A stretch of DNA of 64,000 nt. Origin: Phycisphaeraceae bacterium (GTDB lineage Bacteria > Planctomycetota > Phycisphaerae > Phycisphaerales > UBA1924). Every line of letters starts with the position of its first letter. Positions within the stretch are counted from its first letter, which is position 1. The translations under genes were made by a program, and so were the position numbers. The stretch is from contig JAHBWW010000007.1 of the NCBI GenBank assembly GCA_019636795.1, forward strand, positions 1 through 64,000, read 5' to 3'. Under the pieces are notes generated by a model, which was not told the origin of the DNA, did not search any database, and saw nothing but the letters and a program-made list of their open reading frames with translations. Below are positions 13,327 through 20,370 of this stretch, one piece after another.

Positions 13327-13354
13327 TTGACTCCGAAAGAAAAAATGCTAACCT
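13327..13354 (+). promoter_or_regulatory. Candidate promoter of the leader RNA at 13361
   Basis: TTGACT (13327-13332) and TAACCT (13349-13354) are 16 bases apart, upstream of a structured leader that ends in an intrinsic terminator. Confidence 0.5.
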
Positions 13355-13360
13355 TTTCGG

Positions 13361-13560
13361 CAACCCGGACCGATACAGATCCGGACAGTATGTCCAGAGA
13401 CACCGTCATGAAACGTTATCACCTTTGCGACACCATGCTTCAAACGATCCAGATTGGGTCGCGGTGGCTCGTCTGCGAGGGTGAGATCGGGTAGCAAAGT
13501 CCGAATCTCAACCAAGGCACACGCAAGCCACCGCACAAAACGCGGTGGCTTGTTTCGTTT
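13361..13560 (+). promoter_or_regulatory. Structured leader RNA with mutually exclusive terminator and anti-terminator
   Basis: The roughly 200-base untranslated leader precedes the aspartokinase-like gene. The 10-base sequence CGCGGTGGCT occurs at 13460-13469 and again at 13541-13550. Both copies can pair with AGCCACCGC at 13526-13534. The late pairing makes the terminator; the early one encloses a small hairpin (13468-13479) and an 11-bp stem with two single-A bulges (13480-13490 with 13501-13513), making a three-way junction. An open frame of 28 codons (13408-13494) runs through the early arm, so ribosome-controlled attenuation is possible. Otherwise it may be a riboswitch. I do not recognise a known class. 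Confidence 0.65.
13524..13560 (+). terminator. Intrinsic terminator at the end of the leader RNA
   Basis: The stem CAAGCCACCG/CGGTGGCTTG (13524-13533 with 13542-13551) is followed by TGTTTCGTTT. It lies upstream of the coding start at 13609, so it acts inside the leader of that gene rather than after a gene. Confidence 0.7.
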
Positions 13561-13608
13561 CTGGTCCGTGAGTTTTTGCCCTGTCGATGCACAATGCAGG
13601 AGTTTCCC

Positions 13609-14499
13609 ATGAGTCTTGACAACGCAATCGTGCTGGCTGTTTCCGGCAACCTCATCACTCTCAACCGAGAGCAGACGGTCGCTGAGATCCGCGACTGCCT
13701 GCTGCTCTCCGATCGCGTGATTGCCGTTGTCGGTGCTTCGCAGGCCGAGACGCAGGCCTCGCTCGCGCAAGCCAATCTCCTGCCCCCGCACACTGACCCC
13801 GCAGTGTTGGCGTGGGTCATGTCGTCGCCACAGCGGCGTGCCGCGTCGCTACTCGTTGAAGGCCTGAGAGAAGTGGGTATCAGCGCCAGCGTCGCAGACA
13901 CTGCACAAGTCGGACCAACCACACGGGGTCCGATGCTCGACGCTGAACCTCGCACCATCAAGGCTCGCCCTCTGGCCAAAACCTTCGAGCAGGTGCAGGT
14001 TATCGTCTTCCCAGCTGGTGCCGCACGCTCCGAAGACCTCCGCCCCGCACTGGTCGGGAGTGGTCACCCACTCATCACCGCCTCTTTCATCGCAGCCACG
14101 CTCGCCTTGCCAGCACGCTACCTCGTCGCCGATGACGAAGCCGCACGCTTCGACCACGCTGAACTTCTGACGAGCGACGCGATCTGGTCGATGCTCCCAA
14201 GACTCGATCAGCATGCCATCTTGTTCGCGCAGCGTCGGGGGGTCTCCTTCAGCATCGCCTCGCCAGCCGCACGATCGCTCTCACGCTGCGGCCACACACG
14301 CACCCCTTCCATGGCCGACGGTGATCGACAGCCTCTCGCCACACCCCTTCAGGCGTGGCATGCTCTGAGTGAAGTCAAGCGCGATGGTCGGGCACAAATC
14401 GCACGTTCAACTTCCAGCCTCCCCGATGCCGCACAAACATTCCGCTTCATCAAGCATGAAGCCCCACGAGTGCGCAGCGATGGGCGCGAAGCCGTGTAA
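13609..14499 (+). CDS. Aspartokinase-like (amino acid kinase fold) protein, probably degenerate
   Basis: The 296-residue protein starts at an ATG with AGGAG six bases upstream. Several stretches line up with aspartate kinase: VIAVVGASQ with VVVSAM; AVLAWVMSSPQRRAASLLVEGL with the EQ-S-ALL-A-L helix; and ITASFIAATLALPARYLVADDEAARFDHAELLTSDAIWSMLP (key part ASFIAATLALPARYLVADDE) with the region before DGVYTADP. The N-terminal KFGGTS lysine motif and the GRGGSD motif are missing, so kinase activity is doubtful. It may be a regulatory or moonlighting relative. The assignment rests on pattern resemblance only. A structured leader controls it, and a strong terminator follows. Confidence 0.5.
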   Translation: MSLDNAIVLAVSGNLITLNREQTVAEIRDCLLLSDRVIAVVGASQAETQASLAQANLLPPHTDPAVLAWVMSSPQRRAASLLVEGLREVGISASVADTAQVGPTTRGPMLDAEPRTIKARPLAKTFEQVQVIVFPAGAARSEDLRPALVGSGHPLITASFIAATLALPARYLVADDEAARFDHAELLTSDAIWSMLPRLDQHAILFAQRRGVSFSIASPAARSLSRCGHTRTPSMADGDRQPLATPLQAWHALSEVKRDGRAQIARSTSSLPDAAQTFRFIKHEAPRVRSDGREAV

Positions 14500-14601: not shown

Positions 14602-14982
14602 TCAGATCAACCCCAGATGCAACTTCGCTTCGTCGCTCATCATGTCCTTGGACCACCGTGGCTCCCACACAAGTTCCACTCGCGCAGCCACAACCCCTTC
14701 CGCCGTCTCAACCGCTGCCTTCACCGCAGCCGGAATCGAATGCGCCTCCGGGCATGCCGGGCTCGTCAGCGTCATCGCAACTCTCACCTGGCCATTACTG
14801 TCCGGCTCAATCGCGTAGATCAGCCCAAGATCAAACACATTCACCGGAATCTCCGGGTCGTACACCGACTTGATCGCCTCGATGATCCGCCCGCGCAGCG
14901 TCTGGGCATCGGGAGTCGCAGACGGCGCAACCCGCTGCCGCTCTCGCTCTGCACCCGAATCAAAGATGCGCATCTCGCTCAT
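14602..14982 (-). CDS. sufT: SufT-like MIP18 family (DUF59) Fe-S assembly protein
   Basis: The 126-residue protein has the MIP18/DUF59 core: IIEAIKSVYDPEIPVNVFDLGLIY, of which the diagnostic part is VYDPEIPVNVFDLGL, then VRVAMTLTSPACPEAHSIP with the conserved cysteine in SPACP, and a C-terminal VWEPRWSKDMMSDEAK. SufT proteins help mature Fe-S proteins. It is the last gene of the suf operon; its start overlaps the stop of sufE (ATGA). The N-terminal 25 residues are a polar extension. Confidence 0.9.
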   Translation of the reverse strand: MSEMRIFDSGAERERQRVAPSATPDAQTLRGRIIEAIKSVYDPEIPVNVFDLGLIYAIEPDSNGQVRVAMTLTSPACPEAHSIPAAVKAAVETAEGVVAARVELVWEPRWSKDMMSDEAKLHLGLI

Positions 14983-15410
14983 CGCCCAGCCTCCATCTCG
15001 ACCGCCAGAGCCCGAATCCGGCGAATCATGGCCTCAAGCCCATTGCGCCGCGTCCCGCTCAAGTGCGCATCGAGCTCGAGTCGTTCCAAAATCCCACGCG
15101 CATCCACAGCCATCGCCTCGGCAGCCGTTCGCCCGTTATACATGCTCATCACAATCGCAATCAGCCCATTGACGATATGTGCATCGCTGATCGCCCGAAT
15201 GCGCAACCGATCACTCCCCCCCCCCTCGCGCTCAAGTCGCAACCAGACCTGCGCCTGACACCCATGCACGCGCGCATCGTCCGTCCTCTCGCTCTCAGGC
15301 ATCGGAGGCAACCGCTTGCCCAGATCGATGATGTACCCGAAACGTTCCTCCCAGTCGCCGAGCAACTCGAACGTCTCGATGATCTCGTCTAGTGTTGGTA
15401 GCTCGCGCAT
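14979..15410 (-). CDS. sufE: SufE sulfur acceptor protein
   Basis: The 143-residue protein matches SufE: an N-terminal helix with EIIETFELLGDWEERFGYIIDLG and the sulfur-accepting loop DDARVHGCQAQVW with Cys51, followed by the helical GLIAIVMSMYNGRTAAEA segment. SufE takes persulfide sulfur from SufS and passes it to SufB. It lies 12 bases downstream of sufS and overlaps sufT by four bases. Confidence 0.95.
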   Translation of the reverse strand: MRELPTLDEIIETFELLGDWEERFGYIIDLGKRLPPMPESERTDDARVHGCQAQVWLRLEREGGGSDRLRIRAISDAHIVNGLIAIVMSMYNGRTAAEAMAVDARGILERLELDAHLSGTRRNGLEAMIRRIRALAVEMEAGR

Positions 15411-15422
15411 CCCATGAGCCTA

Positions 15423-16673
15423 TCACGCGAGCATTCGTCGAGCACGCTCGATTCCCTCGACCAGCACATCGATTTCCGCATGAGTGTTGTACATCGCCAG
15501 CGACGCCCGCGCAGTCGCCGTCACGCCAAACCGCTTCATCAGAGGCTGCGTGCAATGATGCCCTGTACGAATCGCCACTCCGAACCGATCCAGCACCGGC
15601 GCCAGGTCATACGGATGAACGCCATCGATCGAAAACGTCACAATCGGAATCTTGCGTAGCGCCTGCCCGTAGATCCGCAATCCCTTGATCTCGCTCAACC
15701 TCGTCTGTGCATGCTCGAGCAGCGACGCCTCATGGGCCCGAACCCCCGCATCATCAAGCTCCCGCACAAAGCGTATCGCCGCCCCAAGCCCGATCGCACC
15801 CGCAATATTCGGCGTGCCGGCCTCGAAACGCGCCGGAAGCCTGGCGAAGGTCGTTTTCTCAAAGCTCACCGATTCAATCATCTCCCCGCCACCTCGATAC
15901 GGCGGGAGCACCTCCAGCAACTCCTCGCGCCCATACAACACTCCCACGCCCGTCGGTCCGAACATCTTGTGCCCCGAAAGCGCCAGAAAGTCGCACCCGA
16001 TCGCACGCACATCCACCTCGACATGCGCTCCACCCTGTGCCGCATCGATCACCGACAAAGCCCCCGCCGCCTTTGCCATCATGCACACTCGCGCGACGTC
16101 GTTGATCGTCCCCAGCACATTCGACACCATCACACACGCAACGACGCGCGTCCGCTCCGTCATCAATCGCTGGGCAGCATCCAGGTCCAGTTCGCCCGAG
16201 TCCGTCACCGGAATCACATCAATCTTCGCCCCGGCTCGCTCGCACGCCATCTGCCATGGCACGATGTTCGAGTGATGCTCCATCTCACTCAGCAGCACAC
16301 GATCGCCCGCTCGCAGCCTCGCTTGCCCCACCGAACTGGCCACGAGATTGATGGCATCGGTCACGCCACTTGTAAAAATGCACTCGCGCGACGACTCCGC
16401 CTTGATAAACCCCGCTGCTGCCTCGCGCGCCGATTCATACCCACGCGTCGCGCGCACACTCAACTCGTGCATCCCCCGATGCACGTTCGCATTGTCACGC
16501 CGATAAAACTCATCCATCGCCTCCAGCACCTGACCGGGTTTGTGCGTCGTCGCAGCGTTGTCCAGATACACCAGAGGCCTGCCATGCACCTCCTGCGCCA
16601 GGGCCGGGAACTTCGCCCGCAGTGCCTCCACATCAAACCCAGCGCACGCCATAGCCCCCTCGCTTGCCGTCAT
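15423..16673 (-). CDS. sufS: Cysteine desulfurase SufS
   Basis: This is a 416-residue group II cysteine desulfurase. Diagnostic motifs are VYLDNAATTHKP near the N-terminus, the PLP-binding lysine in LSGHKMFGPTGVG (about residue 229) and the catalytic cysteine in RTGHHCTQPLMKRFG (about residue 374). It releases sulfur from cysteine as an enzyme persulfide for SufE. The start overlaps the sufD stop by four bases. Length and motif spacing are normal for SufS. Confidence 0.97.
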   Translation of the reverse strand: MTASEGAMACAGFDVEALRAKFPALAQEVHGRPLVYLDNAATTHKPGQVLEAMDEFYRRDNANVHRGMHELSVRATRGYESAREAAAGFIKAESSRECIFTSGVTDAINLVASSVGQARLRAGDRVLLSEMEHHSNIVPWQMACERAGAKIDVIPVTDSGELDLDAAQRLMTERTRVVACVMVSNVLGTINDVARVCMMAKAAGALSVIDAAQGGAHVEVDVRAIGCDFLALSGHKMFGPTGVGVLYGREELLEVLPPYRGGGEMIESVSFEKTTFARLPARFEAGTPNIAGAIGLGAAIRFVRELDDAGVRAHEASLLEHAQTRLSEIKGLRIYGQALRKIPIVTFSIDGVHPYDLAPVLDRFGVAIRTGHHCTQPLMKRFGVTATARASLAMYNTHAEIDVLVEGIERARRMLA

Positions 16674-17983
16674 ACCTCGATGCTCAATCCCCGCGCCATC
16701 GGAAGCTTTGCGATCATCTCCGCTGCCAAAAGCCGCCGCACAGGGACCAATTCCATGCGATCAAACCCCTCTGCAGCGAACGCATACACCAGCATTGCCC
16801 GCGCAACAGGTTCGCTCAGTCCGCGTGATCGAAAATAAAACACCGCCTCATCATCCACACGCCCGGTTGTCGCGCCATGCGTGCAACGCACATCATCGGC
16901 GTAGATCTCCAGTTGAGGCCTCGCATTCACCCGTGCGTCATCCGACAGCAGCATATTCCGGTTCGTCTGAATCGCATCTGTCTTCTGTGCAACCTTATCT
17001 ACCACGATCCGCCCCGTAAACACGCCACGCGAGCGGTCGTTCATGATCCCCTTGTAGTACTGCCGACTCTCGCAGTTTGGAGCCGCATGACGCACGCGCA
17101 TCGCATTGTCCAGATGCTGATCGTTGTGCCCCACGTACAAACCATTGATCAGACAGTGCGCATGCTCGCCCGCCAGCACCGGAACCACGTTGTTGCGCAC
17201 AATCCTTCCGCCCAGCAGCACCGTATGAGAGTGCACCTTGCTGCGCGCGCCCTGCTCGATGAGCAGCGTTGAGACATTGAACGCTCGCTCGCTCTCACGC
17301 TCCAGCACATAATGCTCGACAAAACCCTCTTCTGCCGCCACGATCTCCGTCAGCGCGTTGCTCAGATACACCGCTTCGTTGCTCAGTCCAGCATACTGCT
17401 CGATCACCTTCACGCTCGCGCCTCGATCAGCCACGATCAGGTTTCGACAATGCGTCGCCACAGGCTCCTGCGTGCTCGTACCGATCGACAGCACATGAAT
17501 GGGCTTTGCAGCCTCACGTCCCGCTTCGACGTGCACAAACAATCCGGGCCCGAACTTTGCATCATTCAAAGCGGTGAAGCCGTCATCATGCTCGCGGCTC
17601 AATCTCCCCAGGTGCCGCCGCGCCGACTCGCGATCAAACGCATCCCCAATCAGACAGCACGTCACACCAGTCCCAAGGCCCGACAGATCGCTCAAGTCCT
17701 CACGAAACACTCCATCCACGAACACCGCTGCCGCTGCATCAAGATCCGGTATCACCAGCCTCGCCACGTCCGCACTCGTCACCTTCTCGCCAGGCGAAGC
17801 ATCCTGCCACCGCGTTTGTGCAATCACCTCCACATTCGTGAAACGCCACGCCTCATCACGCAATGTCGGATACCCAGAACCCTCAAACTTCTCGCGCCCG
17901 AGGCTGCGAAGCGTCTCAACCCATGCAGGCTCGAGTCGATCCATGATGCGCTCCGTCGTGTTGTCCAGCACCCTCGACATCAT
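16670..17983 (-). CDS. sufD: Fe-S cluster assembly scaffold subunit SufD
   Basis: The 437-residue SufB/SufD-type protein is rich in parallel beta-helix strands. SufD features include the N-terminal FEGSGYPTLRDEAWRFTNV and the C-terminal core with ARVNARPQLEIYADDVRCTHGATTGRVDDEAVFYFRSRG (key part DDVRCTHGATTGRVDDEA), which carries the conserved histidine. It forms the SufBC2D scaffold with its neighbours. It starts 12 bases after sufC and overlaps sufS by four bases. Confidence 0.95.
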   Translation of the reverse strand: MMSRVLDNTTERIMDRLEPAWVETLRSLGREKFEGSGYPTLRDEAWRFTNVEVIAQTRWQDASPGEKVTSADVARLVIPDLDAAAAVFVDGVFREDLSDLSGLGTGVTCCLIGDAFDRESARRHLGRLSREHDDGFTALNDAKFGPGLFVHVEAGREAAKPIHVLSIGTSTQEPVATHCRNLIVADRGASVKVIEQYAGLSNEAVYLSNALTEIVAAEEGFVEHYVLERESERAFNVSTLLIEQGARSKVHSHTVLLGGRIVRNNVVPVLAGEHAHCLINGLYVGHNDQHLDNAMRVRHAAPNCESRQYYKGIMNDRSRGVFTGRIVVDKVAQKTDAIQTNRNMLLSDDARVNARPQLEIYADDVRCTHGATTGRVDDEAVFYFRSRGLSEPVARAMLVYAFAAEGFDRMELVPVRRLLAAEMIAKLPMARGLSIEV

Positions 17984-17995
17984 TGCTCCTCAGGC

Positions 17996-18790
17996 TCAGC
18001 GCCCCGCACCCGTCGTCGTAGACTCGCGCACACCGAATGGCGCATACCCATGCTTCTCCAACTCATGCGCGACTTCCTTCCCGCCGCTCTTGGCGATCCG
18101 ACCGCCGATCAGCACATGCACCTGATCGGGTACGATGTAGTTCAGCAGTCTCTGATAATGCGTGATGAGAAGAAATGACCGATGCCCGTCGCGCATCGAG
18201 TTCACGCCGTCAGCCACGATCTTGAGCGCATCAATATCCAACCCGGAATCGCTCTCATCGAGAATTCCCAAAACAGAATCCAGCACCGCCATCTGAAAAA
18301 TCTCGAACCGCTTCTTCTCCCCGCCGCTGAACCCCTCATTCACATTGCGCTTGAGCATCTCGAACGGCACATTGATCTGCTCGGCCTTGGCGCGAAAGTG
18401 CTTGAGCAGAGCGCCTGCGTCCAGCTCGTCCTTGCCCTCGAACGCGCGCTTCGCGTTCACCGCAGCCTTGAGAAACTGCATCGCGCTCACGCCCGGGATC
18501 TCGACCGGATACTGAAACGCCAGAAAGATCCCGGCATTGGCTCGCTCGTCGGGCCCGAGCTCCGTCAGATCCTGACCCTTGTACAGAATCTCGCCTTCGG
18601 TGATCTCATAGTCTTCTTTGCCCGCCAGCACCTGGCTCAGGGTGCTCTTTCCCGAACCATTGGGCCCCATGATCGAGTGCACCTCGCCGGGCATGATCGT
18701 CAGATCAACGCCGCGCAGGATCTCGACCGAAGGCTCCCCTTCCAGCCGAACATGAAGATTCTTGATTTCCAGCAGCGGAGTCGATGTCAT
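17996..18790 (-). CDS. sufC: Fe-S assembly ATPase SufC
   Basis: The 264-residue ABC-type ATPase has Walker A GPNGSGKST, the signature FSGGEKKRFE and Walker B LGILDESDSGLDIDAL, followed by the H-loop LLITHYQRLL. These are the standard SufC motifs. It powers shape changes of the SufBCD scaffold and is soluble, not membrane-bound. It lies between sufB and sufD with a 67-base gap after sufB and 12 bases before sufD. Confidence 0.97.
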   Translation of the reverse strand: MTSTPLLEIKNLHVRLEGEPSVEILRGVDLTIMPGEVHSIMGPNGSGKSTLSQVLAGKEDYEITEGEILYKGQDLTELGPDERANAGIFLAFQYPVEIPGVSAMQFLKAAVNAKRAFEGKDELDAGALLKHFRAKAEQINVPFEMLKRNVNEGFSGGEKKRFEIFQMAVLDSVLGILDESDSGLDIDALKIVADGVNSMRDGHRSFLLITHYQRLLNYIVPDQVHVLIGGRIAKSGGKEVAHELEKHGYAPFGVRESTTTGAGR

Positions 18791-18857
18791 CTCCGAATTT
18801 CCTTTCGTCTAACTGTTCGAGCCGCTCCTTCAAGGCTGCGACTCATCAAACCATTCC

Positions 18858-20345
18858 TCATCCCACCGAGCCTTCAAGCGAAACCGCCAGCAGCTTGTTC
18901 GCTTCGACCGCAAACTCCATGGGCAGTTCACTGAACACTTCCTTGCAGAATCCATTGACCAGCAGGCTCACCGCGTCTTCCTCGCTGATGCCGCGAGCGG
19001 TGCAGTAGAACAGCTGATCCTCCGCGATCTTGGTTGTGCTCGCTTCGTGCTCCGCGGTCGCGGTCGAGTTGCGGATGTCCACATACGGAAACGTGTGCGC
19101 CCCGCACTTGTCACCGATCAGAATCGAATCGCACTGCGTGTAGTTGTGCGCATTGGTCGCGCCCTTGTTCATCTGCACGAGCCCCCGATATGTGTTCTGC
19201 CCTTCACCAGCCGAGATTCCCTTGCTCACGATCGTGCTCGTCGTGTTCTTACCGATGTGAATCATCTTCGTGCCCGTGTCGGCCTGTTGTCGCAAGTTGG
19301 TCAGCGCGACCGAGTAGAACTCCCCCTTGCTGCCATCACCCTGAAGAATCACCGACGGATACTTCCAGGTGATCGCAGACCCTGTCTCGACTTGTGTCCA
19401 CGATATTCGGCTGTTCTCGCCCTTGCAGATCCCGCGCTTGGTCACGAAGTTGTAGATCCCACCCTTGCCCTGCGCATCGCCCGGATACCAGTTCTGAATC
19501 GTCGAATACTTGATGTACGCTCCCTTGAACGCCACCAACTCCACCACCGCTGCGTGCAACTGATTTTCGTCACGCATCGGCGCGGTGCAGCCTTCGAGAT
19601 AACTCACCTCCGCTCCTTCATCCGCAATGATGAGCGTCCGCTCGAATTGTCCAGTATTGCGCGCATTGATCCGGAAGTAGGTGCTCAGTTCCATCGGGCA
19701 CTTGACACCCTTGGGCACATACACAAACGACCCGTCGCTGAAGACTGCCGAGTTGAGTGTGGCAAAGAAATTATCCGAGTAAGGCACCACACTGCCGAGA
19801 TACTTCTGCACCAATTCCGGGTGCTCGCGCACAGCTTCAGAGATTGAACAGAAAATCACCCCATGCGACTTCAACTCCTCCTGAAACGTCGTCTTCACCG
19901 ACACCGAATCGAACACCGCATCAACCGCAACCTTGCGCCCCTCGGCAGGAGTCGCAGCAGCCCCCACCACGCCCAACAGAGCAGCCTGCTCGCCCAGTGG
20001 AATGCCCAGTTTGGCGTAAGTCTCCAGAATCTTGGGATCCACCTCATCCAGACTCGCAGGCCCGGTCTTGGGTGCCGCGTAGTAACTGATACCTTTATAG
20101 TCGATCGGAGGGTAGCCATAGGGCAAAAACACCCATTCAGGCTCCTTCATCTCCAACCATTTCCGGTAGGCCTTCAGGCGCCAGTCCAATAGCCATTCCG
20201 GCTCTGACTTCTTCGCAGAGATAAAACGGACAATATCTTCGCTCAAACCGGGGGGGGCATAATCCTGCTCGATGTCCGTCACGAAGCCGTACTTGTACTC
20301 CCGGCGATCGCTGGTAATCTTTGCGACTTCTTCAGTGGTCGTCAT
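18858..20345 (-). CDS. sufB: Fe-S cluster assembly scaffold subunit SufB
   Basis: The 495-residue protein is the lead gene of the suf operon. It shows typical SufB sequence: [18 protein letters not shown] near the start, [23 protein letters not shown], the C-terminal [18 protein letters not shown] and [27 protein letters not shown]. SufB holds the nascent cluster. I start at ATG 20345 because GAGGGG precedes it; a GTG six bases upstream is possible. Upstream lie a Fur-box-like site and an 18-20 base palindrome, suggesting iron or stress control. Confidence 0.96.
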
Positions 20346-20370
20346 GCGCACCCCCTCGACGAGGACAATA

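Follow-up and report, generated by a model that had tools for sequence, protein, structure and literature searches.

The window analyzed here is a stretch of 64,000 nucleotides from a Phycisphaeraceae bacterium (positions 1 to 64,000, forward strand, of contig JAHBWW010000007.1, assembly GCA_019636795.1). A gene at 13609-14499 on the forward strand encodes a 296-aa protein that has an aspartokinase (AK) fold and lacks the AK catalytic motifs, as judged from PF00696, a motif alignment and an AF2 model. The DNA preceding it had been described in a first-pass annotation as a candidate attenuator or riboswitch. Divergent to this pseudo-AK gene lies hrpA (TIGR01967; 9354-13244), and a SUF iron-sulfur cluster (NCBIfam names; 14602-20351) converges on it; relatives of the SUF cluster occur downstream in three further stretches (L131, L132, and L133). 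HrpA is a ribosome-rescue helicase, and the divergent placement of its gene recurs in 14 of the 15 relatives' stretches (L130-L137 and L139-L144), the contig of the remaining one (L138) ending too soon. One of these stretches, L133 (RHKP01000003.1), is titled Cyanobacteria; its locus matches Phycisphaerales relatives, and it is probably mislabelled.

The features of the leader all lie on the forward strand. A putative promoter, TTGACT-16-TAACCT, occupies 13327-13354. A sigma-70 consensus scan alone yielded no promoter at the window leader; the assignment draws on relatives, in which the motif stands at the same position. TTGACN-16-TANNNT is found 44-121 nt 5' of the chosen ORF start in 14 of 16 leaders, including that of the window, while L006 has no such motif and the contig of L011 ends too soon. 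Many relatives also carry CGAA 8 nt after TTGAC in the promoter spacer, possibly an operator; this pattern is rare (0-2 per strand in the four genomes searched) and is absent from that place in the window promoter. The leader ORF, MSRDTVMKRYHLCDTMLQTIQIGSRWLVCEGEIG, spans 13390-13494 and contains 34 codons (28 if counted from the ATG at 13408), with its TAG stop codon at 13492-13494. Leader start codons were our own choice; in the window, in-frame ATGs are present at both 13390 and 13408. A candidate control codon, TGC (Cys), is located at 13426-13428, 34 nt 5' of segment A.

The sequence CGCGGTGGCT is present twice, at 13460-13469 and 13541-13550, and both copies share the partner AGCCACCGC at 13526-13534. 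The early copy is segment A (13460-13469), the 5' strand of the putative antiterminator, whose pairing can be extended to 13477. Segment B (13523-13534), identified by scan and pairing, is a partner for both A and C, and segment C with its T-rich tail (13541-13560) forms an intrinsic terminator with B. A scan detected this terminator at 13523-13553, although the scan alone is not significant, because shuffled sequences give 1.0 expected against the 1 found. Nested between A and B is a bulged stem (13480-13513) with the stop codon in its loop. The repeat copies, their partner, the bulged stem and the ORF all lie where the first-pass annotation had put them; the stem does not appear to be a part common to the relatives, whose folds show other stems between A and B. 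As a whole, the 202-nt window leader folds more stably than 200 of 200 shuffles (z -3.5). A terminator of the form GCCACCGC...GCGGTGGC also occurs 3' of tRNA-Pro(CGG) genes in three genomes (L034, L036, and L123).

A gene profile search over all 163 genomes of the window's family (f1) gave 110 matches, the top 16 of which, from eight genera, represent one divergent aspartokinase(-homoserine dehydrogenase, HSD) paralog. None of these 16 paralogs has KFGGS, GRGGSD, or KDVxGLYxxDP, motifs that 15 other AKs of the family in the same alignment keep with slight changes. The HSD half is absent from the window protein, and none of the HSD motifs looked for (NGTTN, GFAExDP, and the Lys of ANK) is kept in the four longest paralogs (L008, L009, L011, and L077). 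The earlier designation "aspartokinase-like" thus stands for the fold and fails for the catalytic motifs. The window protein matches the AA_kinase profile PF00696 weakly (33.5 bits, above the cut-off of 24.9), and its AF2 model (16 rows) has a mean pLDDT of 77, the ten-residue blocks of residues 1-170 reaching 86-97. PDB aspartokinases are among the best Foldseek matches of this model, led by the Pseudomonas aeruginosa aspartate kinase 5yei (E 3.8e-13). In eight of the 16 paralog genomes another AK match of lower score is listed, always with a GRGGSD-like motif, and the true AK-HSD gene of the window genome sits between a Cys/Met-metabolism PLP enzyme and aspartate-semialdehyde dehydrogenase (Asd). 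The window gene product is plausibly an aspartokinase-fold pseudoenzyme that is regulatory for the aspartate-to-sulfur-amino-acid pathway.

The leader attenuator precedes all 16 close paralogs. In every case the ORF is kept open through A, its stop codon follows A by 11-24 nt and precedes B by 26-35 nt, and a terminator with segment C is present. The first-pass annotation had proposed exclusive ON and OFF pairings, to be checked by a search for compensatory base changes in relatives, and such changes are indeed present in the A:B pairing. A:B duplexes have energies of -16.5 to -28.6 kcal/mol across the 16 leaders (-21.0 kcal/mol in the window). The complementarity is reached by 0 of 1000 dinucleotide shuffles for the window and by no more than 9 of 1000 in 15 of the 16 leaders; the exception is L074, whose complementarity 184 of 1000 shuffles reach. 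Overall, 173 of 192 A:B cells are paired. Compensatory changes extend past the terminator stem, and B positions 1-4, 8, and 12 show several kinds of pair. All 16 leaders have B position 2 paired to A (CG in 11, GC in 4, and AT in 1), and only 8 of 16 have it paired to C, which argues that A:B is maintained separately from the terminator. Neither column shuffles nor arm swaps reach 173 paired cells (0 of 5000 each). Because each A 12-mer had been picked as the best-matching one, partner swaps were also re-optimised in that respect, and 0 of 10000 such swaps reach that value. Reducing the set to a single leader for each genus leaves 86 of 96 cells paired, a value that 68 of 40320 permutations reach. 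A protector (1:2) hairpin is unsupported, as pairing between A and the sequence before it is above chance (5% level) in 2 of the 16 leaders.

The codons that precede A point to cysteine. Cys makes up 30 of 343 pre-A codons, where position-specific base composition would give 6.4 (P 4.5e-12, a value too small because the leaders are related); the two other frames contain 16 in 336 and 8 in 328. Relative to 31 AK proteins, Cys is 10.9-fold more frequent. The last pre-A Cys codon starts 3-37 nt 5' of A. In L077 it stands 12 nt before A, and another Cys codon opens A itself. The window leader has a single pre-A Cys codon, with no run or tandem Cys. Other residues are enriched as well: Gln occurs 36 times against 12.1 expected (3.0-fold) and Met 26 times against 10.3 (2.5-fold) in the same 343 codons, Trp 8 times against 2.6, and Thr is 1.6-fold enriched in the 16 leaders. 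There is no enrichment over composition of Ile (22 against 28.2) or His (26 against 22.1). Cys and Met are both present before A in 16 of 16 leaders. Control by Trp through the TGG in A was considered and rejected, because A falls in all three codon frames among the 16 leaders and L013 codes for GGF there.

To look beyond these paralogs, a scan rule was set up that demands a perfect stem, a T-run, and a Cys-containing ORF ending 10-60 nt before; it recovers all 16 known f1 leaders. Of the 94 remaining gene matches, 91 carry a GRGGSD-like motif and three do not, and the upstream regions of 91 were scanned, three of them shortened by contig ends. The other three were G117 and G130, where contigs end, and the AK of the window genome, whose start is overlapped by a PLP-enzyme gene upstream. 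The scan gave five further Cys leaders (G050, G113, G030, G045, and G112), bringing the Cys leaders of f1 to at least 21 genes in 11 genera. In these additional leaders, Cys accounts for 14 of 166 pre-A codons, and A:B energies range from -31.4 to -34.6. The leaders of G045 and G112 (MPVVKNRLANTFCPMCCMRMPCPGGRCGC..., MPVVKNRLANTFCPMCCMRMPCPGG...) precede AKs that keep KFGSS/KLGSS and GRGGSD, while those of G050, G113, and G030 lie 5' of AK-like genes, the one in G030 lacking GRGGSD and keeping KFGGS. L333 also passed the scan rule, at -327, and was set aside for its single Cys and poor T-run. In G088, of the same genus as G045, the contig is cut at the tail of a presumed terminator. One leader of the family, in G005 (L330), carries a different run: ...ASTTTTTTTTMTTTGMN..., with eleven Thr codons 12-45 nt before A, followed by B and a terminator, precedes an AK that keeps GRGGSD. 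To judge from its codons it is likely a Thr attenuator in the window's own family, and the same layout with a Thr run is as predicted for amino-acid attenuators.

A model, R1, was built from the 16 leaders, which themselves score 59.5-84.2 bits; the next-best matches score 40.7 bits in the family and 44.1 bits in 301 genomes of the order. These counts are lower bounds, because R1 misses the five further f1 leaders, which have other B/C sequences. Among the matches listed below 59.5 bits, 22 were inspected by eye and set aside: they follow tRNA genes or genes of greater length. The duplexes upstream there range from -2.9 to -20.3, and pairing energy alone thus cannot separate carriers. An R1 scan of 392 genomes of the phylum (E 1e-7) returned G000, G024, and the outsider G445 (47 bits), whose leader, MNTNSTKMCCLMCAHPGGACSGMVE, has A at GG codons and the same B/C core, followed by an APS kinase gene.

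In family f30, which belongs to another class, cysC is present in all 16 genomes, and a leader precedes the best-scoring copy in 15 of them. The scan rule recovers all 15; the best-scoring cysC of G411 (L166) has no Cys ORF with a terminator, nor do ten second cysC places (L167-L176). All three f30 proteins tested match PF01583 (APS kinase). The f30 leaders share the geometry: cysC is preceded by a run of Cys codons (e.g. in MCCLMCAH-GG), the distance of pre-A Cys codons to A is 3-36 nt, and the ORF stops 4-20 nt past A, with 21-26 nt left to B. Cys makes up 45 of 222 pre-A codons against 9.2 expected (P 1e-18, which is too small because these leaders are very closely related); Met (27 against 7.6), Ala (25 against 7.5), and Lys (30 against 11.8) are also enriched. 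A second model, R2, built from 13 f30 leaders (alignment A6; L154 and L158 shortened, L156 and L165 omitted), gives 90-145 bits in 15 f30 genomes and 29.6 bits on the window leader, within the range of plain terminators. Of the 44 R2 matches below 90 bits (the window apart), 14 were inspected and by eye are plain terminators. Both models are tuned to one terminator sequence and therefore give lower bounds. The window genome's own cysC has no such leader within the 330 nt read. From their core, layout and Cys content, it is plausible that the f1 and f30 leaders share descent. A PF03601 protein gene follows the attenuated cysC in L151 (2328-3356), and the same gene does so in L150; PF03601 is a putative sulfate exporter family.

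We consider it very probable that the window leader is a ribosome-mediated transcription attenuator that reads the cysteine supply, the signal being suggested by the relatives' leaders before the sulfur-assimilation gene cysC. Leader translation, stalling at Cys, and the direction of control are predictions from the sequences, and would operate as follows. A ribosome would trail RNA polymerase along the leader ORF. If charged Cys-tRNA were scarce, it would wait at Cys codons 5' of A, the free A would pair with newly made B, and the resulting antiterminator would allow the gene to be read. If Cys were plentiful, the ribosome would cover and pass A, B would pair with C, and transcription would stop in the T-run. 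The first-pass annotation had left the sensor open between translation of the leader and a ligand. Translation would be the better candidate, because a Cys-rich ORF runs through A in 16 of 16 leaders, f30 has a Cys run before cysC, and a Thr-run version exists.

Equilibrium folding with a masked ribosome (footprint of -18 to +12, our choice) is in part consistent with this scheme. With the mask at or past A, the mean P(terminator) is 0.90-0.95, and with the mask 18-42 nt before A the mean P(antiterminator) is 0.35-0.48. A ribosome at the stop codon gives P(terminator) of at least 0.81 in 15 of 16 leaders; the exception, L008, goes ON (0.85), contrary to the model. With the ribosome stalled at the last usable Cys, P(ON) falls in L007 and L008 and stays near 0 in L013, L014, and L018, and in f30 the peak mean P(ON), located at the Cys codons, is 0.18. 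At no ribosome position does the window leader leave the OFF state (P(ON) <0.1 throughout), and the same holds for L013; thus, if the window leader switches, it must do so kinetically. When the window transcript is cut before C, A:B stands at 0.73.

The folding also predicts that most upstream stalls, not those at Cys alone, would switch the leader ON. The same ribosome device might then have its stall set otherwise: by Gln or Met supply, by a general slowdown or antibiotics, or by a metal-sensing Cys/Met arrest peptide. Any stall 18-42 nt before A would suffice, the Gln and Met enrichments noted above fit such a device, and the divergent helicase gene neighbours the pseudo-AK gene in 15 of 16 genomes. 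Nonetheless, we hold this to be unlikely, because Cys is the most strongly enriched residue in both families, f30 places it before cysC, the G045 and G112 leaders contain a Cys-dense stretch, and His is not enriched over composition. A precedent for metal sensing is CruR/DUF2946, a Cys-bearing, copper-sensing uORF with a CXXC motif that controls read-through and is Rho-dependent (PMC9426467). The window leader differs in having an intrinsic terminator and no DUF2946 match (one sub-threshold CENP-B_N match only).

A decaying or passive locus, with repeat and terminator left over in front of a pseudogene, would account for the loss of the catalytic motifs and of the HSD half. It is highly improbable, since the open frame and the attenuator are kept in 16 of 16 cases over eight genera with compensatory changes, and the AF2 model retains the fold over residues 1-170. 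Least likely of all is a ligand-binding riboswitch built on a terminator platform. The stability of the leader and its alternative pairing could be cited in its favour; we rejected it because the Rfam search was negative and an aptamer-like core is absent, the invariant columns of alignment A3 being the A region, B, and C, while ORF, stop position and Cys content are what is kept instead. In line with the earlier failure to match a known class, Rfam, whose families include attenuators, riboswitches and T-boxes, gave nothing at gathering score at the window place or the 16 loci, and only three weak matches in the window at E up to 10, all on the other strand. Neither of the two results that the first-pass annotation had named as refuting it, an Rfam match or a lack of compensatory changes, was obtained.

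The mode of working does, on the contrary, match known ribosome-mediated attenuators. A leader ORF lies 5' of an intrinsic terminator, exclusive pairings are kept, and control codons stand before the antiterminator; a trp-type protector hairpin was not found. The leaders thus belong to the wider ribosome-mediated kind and not to the four-segment trp type. In trp/thr-type attenuators a leader ORF governs the choice between antiterminator and terminator, and the Thr leader precedes the AK-HSD gene thrA. The G005 leader, with its Thr run before an AK, resembles the Thr attenuator in kind. The 16 leaders are unlike that type in their unsupported protector hairpin, unenriched Ile, merely 1.6-fold Thr and absence of an Rfam match.

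Cys leader peptides of actinobacterial cys operons have reportedly been studied by Canestrari in 2020. Short Cys-codon leader ORFs before sulfur genes in such operons are also described in an earlier account (PMC1262725), in which, unlike in the leaders studied here, no conserved terminator hairpins were found with them; the phylum is another one as well. Also similar in design is the uORFC-8-2 motif before cysS in Rhodobacterales (PMC8632094), with proposed ribosome-mediated attenuation by Cys-tRNA, which likewise joins an intrinsic terminator to a leader ORF that contains Cys codons. It belongs to Alphaproteobacteria and a cysteinyl-tRNA synthetase gene, with tandem Cys usually at 14-15 and Cys codons within the stem, whereas the present leaders are from Planctomycetota, precede genes for AK-like proteins and APS kinase, and have the antiterminator strand A inside the ORF; the window leader has no tandem Cys. 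According to a 2010 survey (PMC2965389), such systems had previously been seen only in Proteobacteria and Actinobacteria, to which it added a case in Firmicutes. Short leader genes have been counted genome-wide in Planctomycetota, with no attenuator named in the excerpt available (PMC4833913), and in the open-licence literature we found no leader-peptide attenuator described for this phylum. The leaders reported here are a new leader-peptide attenuator family of an already known kind, and we have good confidence that this family responds to Cys.

If so, attenuation in coexisting Cys- and Thr-coded versions serves the sulfur and aspartate metabolism of the phylum, and would in turn imply coupled transcription and translation in Planctomycetota. 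The surprising part is the target in the window, a pseudoenzyme. As a tentative and rather doubtful scenario, the Cys attenuator of two classes may once have controlled an active aspartokinase, as it still would in G045 and G112, and have been kept while the enzyme lost its motifs in eight other genera. On Cys shortage, the dead protein would either regulate the true AK-HSD as its partner or serve as a decoy for it, steering aspartate carbon to homoserine and the sulfur amino acids. Were this true, a pseudoenzyme would be controlled by translation sensing, and the system would offer a direct test of the purpose of a conserved metabolic pseudoenzyme.
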